NCBI GenBank assembly: GCA_003216435.1
Contig: QCIW01000002.1
Location: 1 to 64,000, forward strand
DNA: 64,000 nt
DNA from: Prochlorococcus sp. AG-402-N21
GTDB taxonomy: Bacteria > Cyanobacteriota > Cyanobacteriia > PCC-6307 > Cyanobiaceae
Direction: 5' to 3'
Part shown: in pieces, positions 32,871-41,537 of the stretch
Position numbering within the stretch: position 1 is the stretch's first letter
Layout: the number at the start of each line of letters is the position of its first letter
Made by a program: the position numbers and the translations under genes
Notes under the pieces: model-generated
What the model saw: the letters and a program-made list of their open reading frames with translations, nothing else
Told to the model about the DNA's origin: nothing
Databases searched by the model: none

Positions 32871-33485
32871 ATGTTCATCTCATACAAGCATCTCTTAATT
32901 CTATCAATCATGGGAATGAGTATCTATGGATCAACATCGATTGAAGAAGTCAAGAGCAAAAACAACAGAAATAACCCATATATAATATCAACTAATCGAA
33001 ATCAAAACAAAGTGGGATCAATCGCCTATGAAGAAACGTTCAATACATATTTCTATCCGTGTATCTCCAAGCACAAGGAAGGCAGTTTTGAAAGGGAATT
33101 AGATTGTCACAAGAATGAGATCGAAAAAAATATCATTAATGGAAAAGCTATCGCCAGTTGTGCCATTAGAAGTGGGACATTAAATATAAAAGAAGAAAAT
33201 CTTTTCGTAGTAACCTATGCCTTTTCCAAGTCCAGATTTGCCAAAAAATATCCATACCTTAAAGAATATATATATAAAAGATACTTACAAGAACTGACTA
33301 GTGGGTCGCAATATAAATACAATAAGATCTCCAGGAAAAGAGTCAATTATGTAGGCGGTTGTGTGCAATTACTACGAGCTTATTATCCTGCCTTATTGAA
33401 GCCTGACAAAACCAGAAGAACTAATGAAGTCGTCGAAAATAAAGAATCGATTATAAAAAAATATCATGATAAAATATTCTTTTGA
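32871..33485 (+). CDS. Hypothetical secreted protein with four cysteines
   Basis: The 204-residue protein starts with a basic/hydrophobic N-terminus and a hydrophobic core around residues 5-22, which looks like a signal peptide or anchor. The mature part is Lys/Tyr-rich and has four Cys (in YPCIS, LDCHK, ASCAI and GGCVQ), enough for two disulfides. I recognise no family. It lies in the accessory block after tRNA-fMet and is preceded by AT-rich non-coding DNA. The ATG at 32871 is the natural start. Confidence 0.6.
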   Translation: MFISYKHLLILSIMGMSIYGSTSIEEVKSKNNRNNPYIISTNRNQNKVGSIAYEETFNTYFYPCISKHKEGSFERELDCHKNEIEKNIINGKAIASCAIRSGTLNIKEENLFVVTYAFSKSRFAKKYPYLKEYIYKRYLQELTSGSQYKYNKISRKRVNYVGGCVQLLRAYYPALLKPDKTRRTNEVVENKESIIKKYHDKIFF

Positions 33486-34141: not shown

Positions 34142-35482
34142 ATGAGTAATGAAAGATTCCAAAAATTAGAAAAACTAAAGTTTGCTAATAAAGCTACTGT
34201 CGATAAGGATTTGAATGAAAAAAGCAATTTAAACATATCTAAAAAAACATCTAAAAGACCCTCAAATCAACTAAAGGGTTCTCTCCTCGGCTGGTATTCA
34301 GTTCTTAGCACACAATCATTGAAGCAAAACCAATTATATTTCTTTTCAATGTTCAATGAGCCTCTTGTTATTTATAAAGATAAAGACTCAGTAGTCAAGT
34401 GTATTAAAGACTTATGCCCTCATAGGGGAGCATCTTTTAGAGGAGGAAAGATAACAAATGAAGGCGAGTTAGTTTGTCCTTATCATGGAGCGAGATATAC
34501 ATCAAAAGGAGAATGCTCTAATCTTGATAGAATTACCTGTAATCATATAGTAGATACTAACTATGATAACTATGCTAAAAAGATTCATCTCTATCAATAT
34601 CCCTGCATAGAAAAAGGTGATTACATTTATATTTACTACACAGGTAAGGCTAAAACAAATCTTACAGAATTTAATATCGACTCGAAAATAGAAGAAACAG
34701 TACCTGAATCATATGGTTTTAGTACTTCAGAATATGCATATGAAGAAGTAACTGTAGATTTTAAAGCTGACTGGTCCAGAATAATAGAAAATCATTTAGA
34801 TATCCTTCACATATTCTGGGTTCACGGCGATACAATACCTGACAAAGATGTAAGTAAAAATGTAATCACCAGCTTTGATCAGGAAATAATAAGAGAACAA
34901 TCTCAAATAGAAAGTAAATATAATCATAAAGACAAATCCAAAGGAGAGTTTATAACCATTAAATTCATCCCACCAGGAAGGGTAGTTATTTACAAAGGTA
35001 CTCCAGAAACAGCTCGCTATGTTCAAATACTTGACCATATACCCTTAGCTAATAATCGAGCGAGAGTGATAGTAAGGCATTATAGAAAATTCCTGAAGAA
35101 CAAATTAATAACAAAATTAATAATGTTCAAACAATTACAACATAAAATATTTTATAAAGTATTTAAAGAGGATTATTTAATTTTAAGAACACAAACGTTT
35201 AACCAGCAGATGGGATATATCGAGAAAGATAACGTAAAACTATTGGGTGAAGATAAAATGGTTCAATATTATTGGGATTGGCTTCAAAATGCTCTTAACA
35301 AAGATAAGCCATGGGATCTACATCCTATGAAAGTAAACACTAACTCTATCCATGAGGATAGTGATATGCTTTATCCTCCAGAGAATCCCAAATTAGCTAA
35401 AAAAAATATTAGATCAATTCAATTCAACCTTTTATTGAGATCGCTATTCCCTATAGGAGGGATACTTCTAATACTTTTATAA
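34142..35482 (+). CDS. Rieske non-heme iron oxygenase of the PaO/CAO/Tic55 type
   Basis: The 446-residue protein has an N-terminal Rieske [2Fe-2S] domain: CPHRG (C92, H94) and CPYHG (C112, H115). A mononuclear-iron motif follows, ENHLDILHIFWVH at residues 216-228, with H223 and H228 as likely ligands. The C-terminus ends in a hydrophobic anchor. This is the pheophorbide a oxygenase / chlorophyllide a oxygenase / Tic55 group. Prochlorococcus makes divinyl chlorophyll b with a divergent CAO of this kind, and a pcb antenna gene lies 2 kb downstream. Chlorophyll b synthesis is therefore the leading hypothesis, but the exact substrate cannot be read from the sequence. Confidence 0.85.
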   Translation: MSNERFQKLEKLKFANKATVDKDLNEKSNLNISKKTSKRPSNQLKGSLLGWYSVLSTQSLKQNQLYFFSMFNEPLVIYKDKDSVVKCIKDLCPHRGASFRGGKITNEGELVCPYHGARYTSKGECSNLDRITCNHIVDTNYDNYAKKIHLYQYPCIEKGDYIYIYYTGKAKTNLTEFNIDSKIEETVPESYGFSTSEYAYEEVTVDFKADWSRIIENHLDILHIFWVHGDTIPDKDVSKNVITSFDQEIIREQSQIESKYNHKDKSKGEFITIKFIPPGRVVIYKGTPETARYVQILDHIPLANNRARVIVRHYRKFLKNKLITKLIMFKQLQHKIFYKVFKEDYLILRTQTFNQQMGYIEKDNVKLLGEDKMVQYYWDWLQNALNKDKPWDLHPMKVNTNSIHEDSDMLYPPENPKLAKKNIRSIQFNLLLRSLFPIGGILLILL

Positions 35483-35501: not shown

Positions 35502-36296
35502 TTGGAATATATTAAAGATTGTTGGTTACAATTAAGAAATATAGATGTAATCAAAGGAGAAAGTTATATTTTAAATAAAATTAATCTAAATCTATATAAA
35601 GGAGAAATTGTTACAATATTAGGTCCAAATGGTTCTGGAAAGTCAACACTAATAAATCTCATCGCAAAAAATATCTATCCAAAATTTAAAGACGATTCCA
35701 GATTTTTAATTTATGGCAAAGAAAACATTAATATATGGGATCTTAGAAAGAAGATTAGTTTCGTAAACCGTGACTTACACGAAAGAATGGATAATGGCTT
35801 AACTGTAAAAGAGTTAGTGGGATCTGGAATATATGGAAGCATAGGATTAACAAAAGGTCAGTTATTTACAGATGATGATGAACATTCTATAAACAATATA
35901 ATGAATATTTTTGATTTGGAAAGTTTTCAATCTTCTAAGTATAAAGAACTTTCAGATGGACAAAGAAGATCGGTACTAATCGCTAGGGCAATAATAAGTA
36001 ATCCAGAGGTCTTAGTATTAGATGAACCTTTAATAAATCTAGATTTTAAAGCATATTATAGATTAGTGGAGTTATTGAATAAACTAACATCTACAGGAAT
36101 AAGTATGTTAATGGCCACAAATAAAATAGAGAACATACTCAAAGATACAAATAAATTAATCTTGCTTAAAAACGGTCGAATCTATCAAAATGGTGATCCT
36201 AATAAAATACTCAACGTTTCAACATTAAAAGAATTATTTGGAATAGAGATGAAAATTTTGAAATCAAATGGTTATTGGAGAAGTGTACCAATATGA
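35502..36296 (+). CDS. Orphan ABC-type ATPase with altered switch residues
   Basis: The 264-residue protein is a single ATPase domain. Walker A is GPNGSGKST near residue 44, the signature is LSDGQRRSV near residue 150, and Walker B is VLVLDEP. The Q-loop position reads FVNRD and the switch-His position reads ATNKI, so both usual catalytic residues seem replaced by Asn. No permease gene is adjacent. It follows the Rieske gene by 19 bp with an apparent TTG start and is probably cotranscribed. ModF/YlmA-like soluble ATPases are the nearest relatives I can suggest. Confidence 0.8.
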   Translation: MEYIKDCWLQLRNIDVIKGESYILNKINLNLYKGEIVTILGPNGSGKSTLINLIAKNIYPKFKDDSRFLIYGKENINIWDLRKKISFVNRDLHERMDNGLTVKELVGSGIYGSIGLTKGQLFTDDDEHSINNIMNIFDLESFQSSKYKELSDGQRRSVLIARAIISNPEVLVLDEPLINLDFKAYYRLVELLNKLTSTGISMLMATNKIENILKDTNKLILLKNGRIYQNGDPNKILNVSTLKELFGIEMKILKSNGYWRSVPI

Positions 36297-36297
36297 A

Positions 36298-36510
36298 CTA
36301 ACCGATCAAGATTACCAAAACAACAATTAAAAAAATAATAGCAAGATACTTATAGTTTCTATTCTTGTTTAGCTTTACTTGATTAAATAATATATATTGT
36401 TTTTTATTGGAAACAGTCTTACCACAATTGCTGCATATAAGTTTGCCACCCAATGATCTATCTGCTCTAAGACGTTTGCTTCCACAATAATTGCAAATTG
36501 AAAGATTCAT
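36298..36510 (-). CDS. Zinc-ribbon membrane mini-protein
   Basis: The 70-residue protein has two Cys pairs, CNYCGS near residue 6 and CSNCGK near residue 26, separated by RLRADRSLGGKLI, a classic zinc ribbon. One membrane segment occupies residues 54-69. It overlaps the peroxiredoxin-like gene by 4 bp and is probably translated with it. I do not recognise a named family; a membrane-anchored zinc or redox accessory protein is plausible. Confidence 0.7.
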   Translation of the reverse strand: MNLSICNYCGSKRLRADRSLGGKLICSNCGKTVSNKKQYILFNQVKLNKNRNYKYLAIIFLIVVLVILIG

Positions 36511-37271
36511 CCTTCAGAAGAAATACTTGATGGGATATGTTTTTCTATAAAGGCTAATGGATTCCACATTGTCTCTGAGAAGGATAAAAGAGAATTAGAT
36601 CTATAGGAATATACTAACTTATCTTTCTCGTCAAAAATATAGGTAGCTCCTCTTTGTACTATATATTTTTCGATTGGTATATAAGTAGGCCAATTACTTA
36701 ATATCTCCAACATGTTTGTTAGACGTAGAGTGGCTAATTCTAAAGGCTTTAAATGATTAAATGATCCAATATTTTTAAACAAGGATGCTTTAAAAGAGAA
36801 AAAAGTTCCTATGTGAATGATTTCGTCTAAACTATAAATACTAGAAGATCTCTTGTCGCCAATATAACCTCTTAAGACTTCTTTTAAAGTACCAGGAGAA
36901 TTTACTCCAGAACACATGAATAATAAATTGATAATTGGTGGTAAATTGAAATAATTGCCATCTGATAAGGATAGATGGTTATGTATTTCATTGTTATGAA
37001 CAAATTCTATTGTGGTTAATGGCAAATTGGTATATTTTGCAAACTTTTTGCGAGAATTAGAGTTGCCTATACCTAATACAAAAATATTAATATCTTTTTT
37101 ATTTAATAGTTGTAAATTTTTAGCGAGTATTTGGCAGTATTCAATACTATCAAAATCACCAAAGCTACCCAATATGATAATTAAGTATTTGCCTTTCGAT
37201 AATAGTGAATTATTTTGGGGGAATTGACTTCTTAAATAGTTAATTATATTTACCGACTTTTCTGTCATCAT
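36507..37271 (-). CDS. Peroxiredoxin-like (AhpC/TSA_2, PRXL2-type) protein
   Basis: The 254-residue protein resembles the cyanobacterial and plastid AhpC/TSA_2 group. It has IILGSFGDFDSIEYCQIL near residue 31, an FAKYTNLP turn, and the signature LLFMCSGVNSPGTLKEVLRG with GYIGD near residue 117. The fold is thioredoxin-like, but the N-terminal CxxC of true family members is absent and only single cysteines remain. A peroxidase reaction is therefore uncertain. It overlaps the zinc-ribbon gene and is divergent from pcb, with 238 bp between start codons. Confidence 0.72.
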   Translation of the reverse strand: MMTEKSVNIINYLRSQFPQNNSLLSKGKYLIIILGSFGDFDSIEYCQILAKNLQLLNKKDINIFVLGIGNSNSRKKFAKYTNLPLTTIEFVHNNEIHNHLSLSDGNYFNLPPIINLLFMCSGVNSPGTLKEVLRGYIGDKRSSSIYSLDEIIHIGTFFSFKASLFKNIGSFNHLKPLELATLRLTNMLEILSNWPTYIPIEKYIVQRGATYIFDEKDKLVYSYRSNSLLSFSETMWNPLAFIEKHIPSSISSEG

Positions 37272-37509: not shown

Positions 37510-38568
37510 GTGCAGACCTACGGGAACCCAAACGTTACCTATGATTGGTACGCGGGTAATTCAGGAACGACCAACCGCTCAGGGAAATTTATCGCCGCGC
37601 ATGCTGCCCATGCTGGCTTGATGATGTTCTGGGCAGGTGCGTTCACCCTTTTTGAGCTAGCTCGTTACGATGCTTCTGTCCCTATGGGGAATCAGAATCT
37701 AATTTGCTTGCCTCACCTTGCAACACTTGGAATTGGTGGAATTGAAAACGGCGTAATTACTGAGCCTTATGGCTGCACAGTTATTGCCGTATTACACCTA
37801 ATTTTCTCTGGAGTACTAGGTGCCGGTGGAATCCTTCACTCAACACGATATGACGGAGACCTTGGTAACTACCCAGCTGGAAGTCGTCCTAGAAAGTTTG
37901 ACTTTGAATGGGATGATCCAGACAGATTGACCTTTATCCTTGGTCATCACTTGATCTTCCTTGGTCTTGCAAACGTTCAATTCGTTGAATGGGCAAGAAT
38001 CCATGGAATTTGGGATAGTGCTCAAGGAGTAACTCGCACTGTTCAATACAACCTAGACTTGGGAATGGTTTGGAATCACCAGGCTGATTTCCTACAAATT
38101 TCAAGTCTTGAAGATGTTATGGGTGGCCATGCTTTCCTAGCTTTCTTCTTAATGATTGGTGGAGTATTCCACATAATTACTAAGCAATTCGGTGAATACA
38201 CTGAATTCAAAGGCAAAGGCCTACTTTCTGCAGAGTCAGTACTTTCTTACTCTCTAGCAGGGGTTGGCTATATGGCTATTGTTGCTGCTTTCTGGAGCTC
38301 AACAAATACAACAGTATATCCAACTGAATTCTTTGGAGATGTTCTAAAGCTTCAGTTTGATTTTGCTCCTTACTTTATTGACACTGATTCTTCTCTAGCA
38401 GCAGATGCTCATACAGCTCGTGCTTGGCTAGCTAATGTTCATTTCTACCTTGGCTTCTTCTTCATTCAGGGACATCTCTGGCATGCACTAAGAGGAATGG
38501 GATTTGACTTTAAGCGTGTCGGTAAAGCGTTCGACAACATGGAGAACGCAAAGATTACTGGAGGCTAA
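37510..38568 (+). CDS. pcb: Divinyl chlorophyll a/b-binding antenna protein Pcb
   Basis: Pcb proteins are six-helix thylakoid antenna proteins related to PsbC (CP43) and IsiA that harvest light for the photosystems in Prochlorococcus. The 352-residue length is canonical and lacks the large lumenal loop of CP43. The N-terminus MQTYGNPNVTYDWYAGNSG and the repeated membrane His residues (AAHAAHAGL, ILGHHLIFLGLA, NVHFYLGF) that bind chlorophyll are present. The start is GTG without a clear ribosome-binding site. A strong terminator follows. Neighbouring regulator, ferritin and iron-transport genes suggest iron-linked control, as reported for some pcb copies. Confidence 0.96.
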   Translation: MQTYGNPNVTYDWYAGNSGTTNRSGKFIAAHAAHAGLMMFWAGAFTLFELARYDASVPMGNQNLICLPHLATLGIGGIENGVITEPYGCTVIAVLHLIFSGVLGAGGILHSTRYDGDLGNYPAGSRPRKFDFEWDDPDRLTFILGHHLIFLGLANVQFVEWARIHGIWDSAQGVTRTVQYNLDLGMVWNHQADFLQISSLEDVMGGHAFLAFFLMIGGVFHIITKQFGEYTEFKGKGLLSAESVLSYSLAGVGYMAIVAAFWSSTNTTVYPTEFFGDVLKLQFDFAPYFIDTDSSLAADAHTARAWLANVHFYLGFFFIQGHLWHALRGMGFDFKRVGKAFDNMENAKITGG

Positions 38569-38596
38569 AAGTTCTAACCAACTTTTAACTTCTTTT

Positions 38597-38628
38597 AAGG
38601 AGTCCCACTATGGGGCTCCTTTTTTTTT
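38597..38628 (+). terminator. Strong intrinsic terminator after pcb
   Basis: AAGGAGTCCC-ACTAT-GGGGCTCCTT forms a 10-bp stem with one G-T pair, followed directly by a run of T. It lies 29 bp after the pcb stop and separates pcb from the Crp-type regulator. Confidence 0.92.
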
Positions 38629-38844
38629 ATCTACTACCACAACAACCTTCAAAAAAAACGCGAAGTAATTAATAATATCTTCAAAGACTTACCTGAATGA
38701 CCTTATTTGGTAACTTTTATCACCTTTAAAAGACACATTACGTGGAAAACTCGCAACAACCTTATTGTTATTGAGAATCGCTTGCAAAAAGGGAGTTGGG
38801 ATGTGTAAGTTAACTGAGTAAATAAAGCTCTTATTAACAGATAA

Positions 38845-39438
38845 ATGAGCTTCCGCTTTTTAACTGATACATCTATTTCTGCAGTAAGAATGGCTACAGG
38901 CCAATCTGTATTGATAGATCCTTCTGCTAGATCAGGAAATGCATGCCTTGAAGTACTCGAAGGTATAGCAAGAGTTTATTGCCCATGCGAAGAAACCGAA
39001 GGAATGACACTTGCTTTTTTGCAAGCTGGAGATCAACTAAGAACCGACAGGCTTTGCAGTGAAGGTGTATGCGTTGAAGCCCTTACTTCACTCTGTTTTA
39101 GAAGCGATGCTGAAATAAATGAATCTAGCGGTTTTGATGCCGTTAATGAATGGACTCTTCAATTACTCCGAATAAGGCATTTAGGCAATGCAGAACAAAG
39201 ACTTCAAGCTTTATTTGCTTTATTAGTAAATCGCTTAGGTCGTAGATGCGGGAACTGGTGCCAACTCCCCTTTAGGCTTACACATGAACGTATCGGAGAA
39301 TTAATAGGATCCACAAGAGTCACCTCAACAAGATTGATATCAAGACTTCGAACAGCAAACTTATTAGTTGCTCCTTCTGGAGAGCAAACCTTAAGTCTTG
39401 CTCCAACATTTATAGAGACATCACCTTTATCTGCCTAG
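38845..39438 (+). CDS. Crp/Fnr-family transcription regulator, cysteine-rich
   Basis: The 197-residue protein has a C-terminal winged-helix DNA-binding domain with recognition region LTHERIGELIGSTRVTSTRL near residues 145-164, typical of Crp/Fnr regulators. The N-terminal sensor half is short and lacks a clear cyclic-nucleotide pocket. Eight cysteines are present (C34, C46, C48, C71, C76, C84, C135, C139), which could bind an iron-sulfur cluster or metal. It lies between pcb and ferritin, so iron- or redox-responsive control is a reasonable guess. A TGAGAAT half-site lies at 38772-38778. Confidence 0.85.
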   Translation: MSFRFLTDTSISAVRMATGQSVLIDPSARSGNACLEVLEGIARVYCPCEETEGMTLAFLQAGDQLRTDRLCSEGVCVEALTSLCFRSDAEINESSGFDAVNEWTLQLLRIRHLGNAEQRLQALFALLVNRLGRRCGNWCQLPFRLTHERIGELIGSTRVTSTRLISRLRTANLLVAPSGEQTLSLAPTFIETSPLSA

Positions 39439-39442
39439 ATTT

Positions 39443-39718
39443 ATGTATACAGGAACTTCAATTTCCAACTCACTTATTACCGATCTTTGCAGAGAAGTGG
39501 ACTATATTAAAGTACGTTCACAATGCATAATAAATTCACTTGCTAATTGTCAAAGTAAAAAGCTAATTGTTCGGTTAAAGAATGAATTGGAGCAACTTAA
39601 ATTAAGAAGAAACTGTATTAAAGGGCTTTCTAAGGACCTCAGTAATGAGAAAAATATTGACAGTTTATCCATAGATCTTCTTAATGAGCTAATCGGAAGA
39701 AGCCTTATTCAGGTATAA
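39443..39718 (+). CDS. Hypothetical helical protein cotranscribed with the Crp-type regulator
   Basis: The 91-residue protein is mainly helical and charged, with three cysteines and a likely coiled-coil stretch around residues 35-58 (NELEQLKLRRNCIKGLSKDL). I recognise no family. It starts 4 bp after the regulator stop, so the two are almost certainly on one transcript. It could be a partner or modulator of that regulator. It converges with ferritin. Confidence 0.6.
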   Translation: MYTGTSISNSLITDLCREVDYIKVRSQCIINSLANCQSKKLIVRLKNELEQLKLRRNCIKGLSKDLSNEKNIDSLSIDLLNELIGRSLIQV

Positions 39719-39772
39719 TAAAAATCTAATTTTATATAATATTTGGTAAGTTCTTATTAACTATCCTAAAAG

Positions 39773-40339
39773 TTATTCCTTATAAAGTCTGTCATTATAT
39801 AAATCACTATCAATAATAAGCAAAGCAGAAGGATCATCTTCAGCTAGCTGAACTTTGCCTATTAAATATGAAGCATCATCCTCTGCAGATATCTGATTAT
39901 CTATTATGGGATCAAGAAAAACTGTGGTTCTAGTGTCATTTGAACGTTCAGCAGCTGCATATAGCTGTTGAAGAGAAGAAGTTACATCAGCTTCTAATTG
40001 AAAAGTTTCCTTTACTAGATCCAATACAGAATAATAGGTCTGCTTAGGTTTTAAAATGTCGTCTAATATTACTGTTTGGCCTCTAGCTATTAAGTAATTA
40101 ACAAATTTAGAAGCATGTTCCTGTTCGGCTTTTGACTCTTTATCAAAAAATCGAGAGAAACCTCTTAGCTCTCTTTCTGAAAACCATATTGACATCGCAA
40201 AATACTGAGCACTTGCACTCCTCTCTATTGTGATGTGTTCGTAAAGAGCCTGTAATAGAGAAGGGTCAATTGGATGCGCAATCGCCCTGCCTGATGGGCC
40301 CTTATTTATTTGAATAGAATTTTGAGTTGCTTGAGACAT
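39773..40339 (-). CDS. Ferritin
   Basis: The 188-residue protein is a ferritin-like four-helix protein that oxidises and stores iron. Ferroxidase-type ligands are visible: the first Glu in HITIERSASAQYFAM, the ExxH pair in KAEQEHASKF, a Glu in FQLEADVTS, and Gln in DNQISAEDD. The tail beyond the helical core is short. The gene lies next to the iron-transport ATPase. A Fur-box-like palindrome sits 100 bp upstream, so iron regulation is likely. It is one of the iron-homeostasis genes clustered here. Confidence 0.94.
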   Translation of the reverse strand: MSQATQNSIQINKGPSGRAIAHPIDPSLLQALYEHITIERSASAQYFAMSIWFSERELRGFSRFFDKESKAEQEHASKFVNYLIARGQTVILDDILKPKQTYYSVLDLVKETFQLEADVTSSLQQLYAAAERSNDTRTTVFLDPIIDNQISAEDDASYLIGKVQLAEDDPSALLIIDSDLYNDRLYKE

Positions 40340-40438
40340 TGATTTGGTGAAATGCCAGACAAGCCGAGAGGCTTTTCTCTTGTGCTAAATGATACATGAC
40401 AAAAGGATTTTACTTGCTATTTGTTTATAAATGTCTCG

Positions 40439-40457
40439 ATTGAGATTGAATCTCAAT
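40439..40457. promoter_or_regulatory. Fur-box-like operator upstream of ferritin
   Basis: ATTGAGATTGAATCTCAAT is a 19-bp palindrome with perfect 8-bp arms and a 3-bp centre. The TGAGA-N5-TCTCA core has the geometry of Fur sites such as TGAGAATNATTCTCA. It lies 100 bp before the ferritin ATG. On the minus strand a TATAAA-like element follows it, so it may overlap the promoter. Confidence 0.7.
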
Positions 40458-40475
40458 AGCGTTTAAATAACTTTT

Positions 40476-41537
40476 TTATGAAATAAAACATTTAATTCCA
40501 CTCGGAAATAGTGAAATCATTTTACTGGATTTAAATTTGACATGACAAGAGTCTCCTATGCTGAGATCATTAATTGGCGAATGATTAACCCTCAATAGAA
40601 AGTGTGAGGTCTTAAGGGTGATAACTGAGTGCATAAGATGGATCTCTCGAGATTTAACTACTGCATTGGAAGTTAAAGATGTGTCAATTTCCAATGAATC
40701 AGAGTCAAACATAATATGATCAGCTACTAAATCAGCCAAAGTATTCTTAAGTGAGATAGTTCCAATCGGAGTAGAAATTCTTTCTCCTAAAACTTTTACT
40801 GGAAGGATATTCTTCTGAAAAACAAATTCACCTACAAAAGAGGTGGATGGGTTGTTAATTAGTTCATCAGGAGAAGCACATTGGTGCAATTGACCATCTC
40901 GCATGACTGCAACACGATCACATATGGATAACGCTTCTTGAGAATCATGTGTGACAAAAATAGCTGTCGCAGAACAAGTTTTCAAGACTTCTGAAAGTTC
41001 GTTCCTAAGCCTATGTCGAACTTGAAAATCAAGACTATTAAATGGCTCATCCAATAGAACTATAGAAGAGCCAGGTGCCAAAGCCCTGGCTAAAGCTAAT
41101 CTCTGTCTTTGGCCACCAGAAAGTTCATGAGGATATCTAGTAGTAAGTTCAGAAAGTCCTAATAGATCGAGCAACCATTTGGGTCTATCAAAATCAGACC
41201 CTCTAGATAAACCAAAGCAAACATTTTTCCAGACATTTAGGTGAGGAAATAGGGCATAATCCTGGAAAACCATACCTATGCCTCTTTTTTCAGGAGGAAC
41301 AATTCTTTTCCTATTAGAAATTTCCACTCCTGACATGACAATTTGTCCATCGGATGGAGACTCAAAGCCTGCAATAAGTCTAAGTAAAGTAGTTTTTCCA
41401 CAACCAGAAGGACCTACTAATCCAATAAGTTCACCCCTTCTTAGATTTAGATTTATAGATTTTAATGTGTAATTAGATGTTCTGTGAGATCCGTATCGAT
41501 GTGAAAGATCAATTATTTTTAGATGCTCTTCATTCAC
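40476..41537 (-). CDS. Ferric-iron ABC transporter ATPase (FutC/AfuC-like)
   Basis: The 353-residue protein is the ATPase of a ferric-iron or spermidine-type importer. Walker A is GPSGCGKTT near residue 40, the signature LSGGQRQRLALARAL near 137, Walker B LLDEPFNSLD near 160, and the switch His FVTHDSQEA near 193. A C-terminal TOBE-like domain follows. The overall pattern (MVFQDYALFPHLNVWKNV) and the iron-gene neighbourhood favour FutC. The matching binding protein and permease are not in the window. Confidence 0.85.
   Translation of the reverse strand: MNEEHLKIIDLSHRYGSHRTSNYTLKSINLNLRRGELIGLVGPSGCGKTTLLRLIAGFESPSDGQIVMSGVEISNRKRIVPPEKRGIGMVFQDYALFPHLNVWKNVCFGLSRGSDFDRPKWLLDLLGLSELTTRYPHELSGGQRQRLALARALAPGSSIVLLDEPFNSLDFQVRHRLRNELSEVLKTCSATAIFVTHDSQEALSICDRVAVMRDGQLHQCASPDELINNPSTSFVGEFVFQKNILPVKVLGERISTPIGTISLKNTLADLVADHIMFDSDSLEIDTSLTSNAVVKSREIHLMHSVITLKTSHFLLRVNHSPINDLSIGDSCHVKFKSSKMISLFPSGIKCFIS

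Follow-up and report, generated by a model that had tools for sequence, protein, structure and literature searches.

A Rieske oxygenase gene on a Prochlorococcus contig is very probably an ordinary orthologue of PcCAO, the chlorophyll b synthase of the genus

Introduction

Prochlorococcus makes divinyl chlorophyll b, a pigment that enables it to harvest blue light at depth in the ocean, and the locus described here raises the question of whether it encodes the enzyme responsible. The analyzed window (the whole stretch of 64,000 nucleotides, positions 1 to 64,000 of contig QCIW01000002.1 of Prochlorococcus sp. AG-402-N21) contains, at positions 34142-35482 of the plus strand, an ATG-initiated gene for a 446-aa protein, which a sequence-only reading had proposed as a candidate divinyl chlorophyll b synthase. 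The known route to chlorophyll b depends on a CAO-type Rieske oxygenase (PMC13297055), and two articles present PcCAO as a chlorophyll b synthase specific to Prochlorococcus (PMC3441193, citing Satoh and Tanaka 2006; PMC10284923). The role of this ecologically important enzyme has already been described. Satoh and Tanaka, in 2006, are said to have tested PcCAO and to have identified it as the chlorophyll b synthase of Prochlorococcus.

Results

Protein features and predicted structure

The 446-aa protein carries a Rieske [2Fe-2S] domain at residues 51-129 (34292-34528), which matched Pfam PF00355 with an E value of 2.4e-19 and a score of 69.4 bits, compared to a curated cut-off of 20.3. Both of the cysteine-histidine pairs claimed by the sequence-only reading are present, as C92-P-H94 and C112-P-Y-H115 (pattern C-x-H ... 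C-x2-H; cluster ligands C92, H94, C112 and H115). The mononuclear iron motif was also correctly located, with N217-HLDIL-H223-IFWV-H228 (NHLDILHIFWVH) encoded at 34790-34825 and aligned with N159, H165 and H170 of CAO. The third protein ligand of this iron is Asp344 (35171-35173), which aligns with D285 of CAO. Twenty of 20 orthologues retain all eight of these residues (C92, H94, C112, H115, N217, H223, H228 and D344), together with the aspartate within the N217-H228 motif, while nearly all relatives in the alignment also have Asp at the position of D344.

A hydrophobic stretch of 19 residues at the C-terminus (residues 428-446; 35423-35479), with a mean Kyte-Doolittle hydropathy of 2.0, is likely to be the membrane anchor suggested earlier, and an AlphaFold2 model predicts a helix at residues 416-445. 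The model was built from 20 orthologues and has a mean pLDDT of 72, with a disordered N-terminus. In a Foldseek search, the best matches of the model were Rieske oxygenases (SxtT and dicamba monooxygenase, E ∼1e-14). There was no CAO or PaO structure among its PDB matches, and for this reason the closest solved structures are a poor guide to the substrate.

Distribution of the gene and search for rival oxygenases

The source genome is a draft of 1.36 Mb in 47 contigs, estimated to be 76% complete; its near relatives have genomes of 1.7-2.0 Mb. It belongs to a family in which small genomes of the Prochlorococcus type, rich in Pcb genes, occur alongside larger ones of the Synechococcus type with few Pcb genes. 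In the source genome itself the Pcb model gave eight hits, of which at least six exceed the cut-off. Orthologues of the protein were identified in ∼92 of 300 genomes of the family with E values of 8e-56 or better, those of full length being 52-77% identical to it. The next-best match in the same 300 genomes had an E value of 3.4e-18 and 29% identity, leaving a clean gap, and the genomes that carry an orthologue are essentially the small, Pcb-rich ones.

Exactly two Rieske proteins were found in the 76% complete source genome, the protein studied here and a 179-aa PetC-like protein. Nine near-complete relatives carrying an orthologue also have exactly two each (9/9), so that no rival chlorophyllide oxygenase was found in the source genome, as far as it is assembled, or in these nine. 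The orthologue is present in one copy per genome, except in draft genome G097 (85% complete), in which two distinct PcCAO-like genes (G097:C17:27-1160 and G097:C5:11147-12376) encode proteins 57% and 54% identical to that of QCIW01000002.1. The bin may be mixed, or the second copy may be genuine. Carriage of PcCAO by cyanophages was not detected in IMG/VR, and a separate set of phage records yielded only distant Rieske proteins, in entries labelled 'Acinetobacter phage'.

Several Prochlorococcus-like genomes gave no match, among them two of high completeness (G022, 90%; G073, 94%). In three of the five such genomes that were read (G022, G028 and G056), the contig ends inside the syntenic block, before the oxygenase would be reached. 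In G043 the contig begins within the AhpC-like gene of this block, whose arrangement in G034 is a different one. Most of the remaining genomes with no PcCAO match also lack the neighbouring genes. Because the contigs break within the block or the neighbours are missing as well, these absences look like assembly gaps, and natural loss of PcCAO was rejected as their explanation. In all, contig breaks in the syntenic block near the expected PcCAO site were noted in four drafts seemingly devoid of the gene (L092, L093, L094 and L096), which makes absence calls for PcCAO in draft Prochlorococcus genomes unreliable.

Phylogenetic position relative to CAO, PaO and Tic55

Canonical CAO proteins were searched for with an Arabidopsis CAO sequence, which matches all the checked residue numbers of PMC13297055. 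A canonical CAO 54% identical to this query was found in Prochloron didemni, and two further ones are 70% and 64% identical to the Prochloron protein. The P. didemni gene (L043:3097-4171) is split over two frames in a draft scaffold, probably as the result of a sequencing error. A tree of 57 proteins was constructed, 13 of them Prochlorococcus PcCAO proteins; it also includes proteins that we take to be PaO-like and Tic55-like from their Rieske-motif signatures.

The 13 Prochlorococcus proteins form one long branch with support of 100/100. This branch lies outside the clade of canonical CAO, PaO-like and Tic55-like proteins (98/93), an arrangement that was retained after removal of two long rows (97/94), and PcCAO shares a superclade with the PaO- and Tic55-like proteins (97/89). 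In these trees the protein falls outside the PaO-like clade, and the canonical CAO clade, composed of Prochloron and two close relatives, does not include it either. The two CAO types are separated by stem branches of ∼3 and 1.4-2 changes per column.

A tree uniting PcCAO and canonical CAO in one clade was not rejected by AU tests (p = 0.28 and 0.056), and for this reason both a single and a double origin of chlorophyll b synthesis fit the data. A separate origin of chlorophyllide C7 oxygenation in Prochlorococcus, distinct from that of the plant and Prochloron CAO, from a different Rieske stem and with convergence on the glutamine described below, is conceivable, but we regard it as rather unlikely.

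A glutamine shared with canonical CAO

In an AlphaFold3 model of Arabidopsis CAO, the chlorophyllide is held by Q238 (PMC13297055). The column of this residue aligns with Gln295 of the protein studied here (35024-35026), with no gaps up to the nearby P301, R308 and R312. Glutamine occupies this column in 13 of 13 PcCAO rows and 3 of 3 CAO rows, compared to 0 of 41 rows of other relatives. It was also found in all 38 readable orthologue rows, some of which represent one genome twice. PcCAO and CAO have five exclusive columns in common, compared to 0-3 in other pairs of non-sister groups, CAO being represented by three rows only. These alignments, built on few CAO sequences, together with the published model offer a lead, namely that Q295 may be a CAO-like chlorophyllide-binding residue. 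A glutamine shared by two very divergent chlorophyll b synthases provides a concrete residue with which to approach the question of one or two origins.

Apart from this glutamine, PcCAO and the canonical CAO of plants, Prochloron and Prochlorothrix have in common the Rieske ligands and the N/H/H/D set at the mononuclear iron, and by analogy they would catalyze the same reaction. PcCAO differs in having a variable N-terminal extension and the hydrophobic C-terminal helix. The cyanobacterial PaO- and Tic55-like oxygenases belong to the same superfamily and have the same iron ligands; however, they group with canonical CAO in a starred clade of the tree that excludes PcCAO, and they have no glutamine at column 295.

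Discussion

We put the probability that the gene at 34142-35482 is PcCAO, the Prochlorococcus chlorophyll b synthase with the chemistry proposed, at about 95%. Since Prochlorococcus makes divinyl chlorophyll b, the known route needs an oxygenase of the CAO kind, and only one Rieske protein is left besides the PetC-like one, the gene was identified by elimination and not through the locus tag of the tested gene; the identification is almost certainly correct. The observations in its favour are the conserved motifs, the fold class of the model, the occurrence of orthologues in Prochlorococcus-like genomes and the failure to find a rival oxygenase. Against it stand the strong divergence from canonical CAO, the position outside the CAO clade and the 76% completeness of the source genome. 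Compared with PcCAO as known from Prochlorococcus, the protein is likewise a genus-specific, single-copy Rieske oxygenase and the sole candidate in its genome; it shows ordinary sequence divergence and no distinguishing feature. It is almost certainly an ordinary orthologue of an already known enzyme, and the sequence-only reading was right in substance: its candidate is supported, as neither a separate, better-matching CAO in the 76% complete genome nor nesting among PaO-like proteins was found.

A mode of action can be proposed by analogy with CAO and from the Prochlorococcus literature, which supply the substrate and its divinyl state as well as the two hydroxylation steps and the transfer of electrons from one subunit to the next. 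PcCAO would be associated with the membrane and would receive electrons from ferredoxin at its [2Fe-2S] cluster, which would hand them on to the mononuclear iron (H223, H228, D344) of a neighbouring subunit, where O2 would be activated and the C7 methyl group of divinyl chlorophyllide a hydroxylated twice. This double hydroxylation would convert the methyl into a 7-formyl group and so yield divinyl chlorophyll(ide) b, which would then be loaded onto Pcb antenna proteins. As to the divinyl state, PF04432, the domain of BciB-type vinyl reductases, was detected in 0 of 30 Prochlorococcus-type genomes, compared to 14 of 24 others. This is consistent with the 'divinyl' of the earlier proposal as far as reductases of the BciB type are concerned, while that part of the claim rests mainly on the known physiology of Prochlorococcus.

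Two other readings were considered. The protein might be a PaO-, Tic55- or PTC52-like oxygenase that serves some other tetrapyrrole or redox function, such as chlorophyll breakdown, chlorophyll b being produced by a different enzyme. The shared superclade would agree with this, as would a match to the Pfam PaO model (PF08417), although at 21.3 bits it remains below the curated cut-off of 27. However, the protein falls outside the starred clade of PaO- and Tic55-like proteins, none of whose rows has the equivalent of Gln295, and the nine near-complete genomes of the chlorophyll b type encode no other Rieske oxygenase, which makes such a role highly improbable.

A small-molecule Rieske monooxygenase resembling VanA or dicamba monooxygenase and unrelated to pigments is scarcely credible, even though the Pfam VanA_C model scores above its cut-off and the best solved relatives, by both sequence and fold, are small-molecule oxygenases. 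With no CAO or PaO structure for comparison among the PDB matches, that resemblance carries little information on the substrate, whereas the strict conservation of the gene in genomes with a divinyl chlorophyll/Pcb life-style, the CAO-specific glutamine and the membrane helix all argue against such a function. PcCAO is the reading retained.

Genomic neighbourhood of the probable PcCAO gene

The PcCAO gene is followed, after 20 bp, by a gene for an ABC-type ATPase (35502-36296, plus strand; Pfam ABC_tran), with which it is probably co-transcribed. Next come a minus-strand gene for an AhpC/TSA_2-like protein (36507-37271; Pfam PF13911), conserved in position between the ABC gene and pcb, and a plus-strand gene for a chlorophyll a/b antenna protein of the Pcb/IsiA family (37510-38568; TIGR03041, 535.7 bits compared to a cut-off of 335). 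Upstream of PcCAO, a 204-aa ORF (32871-33485) had no Pfam or NCBIfam match. The full gene order, conserved from the oxygenase to nth in much of the group, is oxygenase, ABC ATPase, AhpC-like (reverse), pcb, Crp-type regulator, small ORF, ferritin (reverse), Fe-type ABC ATPase (reverse) and nth.

The Pcb gene begins 2,028 bp past the oxygenase stop codon, in agreement with the 2 kb noted earlier. As support for chlorophyll b synthesis this proximity is weak evidence, because the Pcb gene is one of at least six in the genome, and since the ABC ATPase gene and a minus-strand gene intervene, the oxygenase and Pcb genes are in different operons. Among ten neighbourhoods of the oxygenase, the Crp gene was found nearby in nine, pcb in six and an adjacent ABC gene in seven, while genomes of the G071 type have the oxygenase without these neighbours, as in G071 itself, where it lies at 844966-846222 on the plus strand. 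The proximity to Pcb is conserved, not universal, and constitutes supporting evidence only.

The ABC ATPase gene has no adjacent permease gene. Its position 20 bp behind PcCAO recurs in most low-light lineages, as well as in the high-light genome that was read. A role as a dedicated PcCAO partner was ruled out by the presence of homologues (33-38% identity) in genomes with no PcCAO and by their location away from PcCAO in genomes of the G030/G071 type; the ATPase is not specific to chlorophyll b.

The region 37510-41537, comprising the Pcb/IsiA-type gene and the genes for the Crp-family regulator, the ferritin and the Fe(III)-type ABC ATPase, represents a conserved block. The company of these three genes suggests that the Pcb gene at 37510-38568 may be under iron control and not linked to chlorophyll b in itself.
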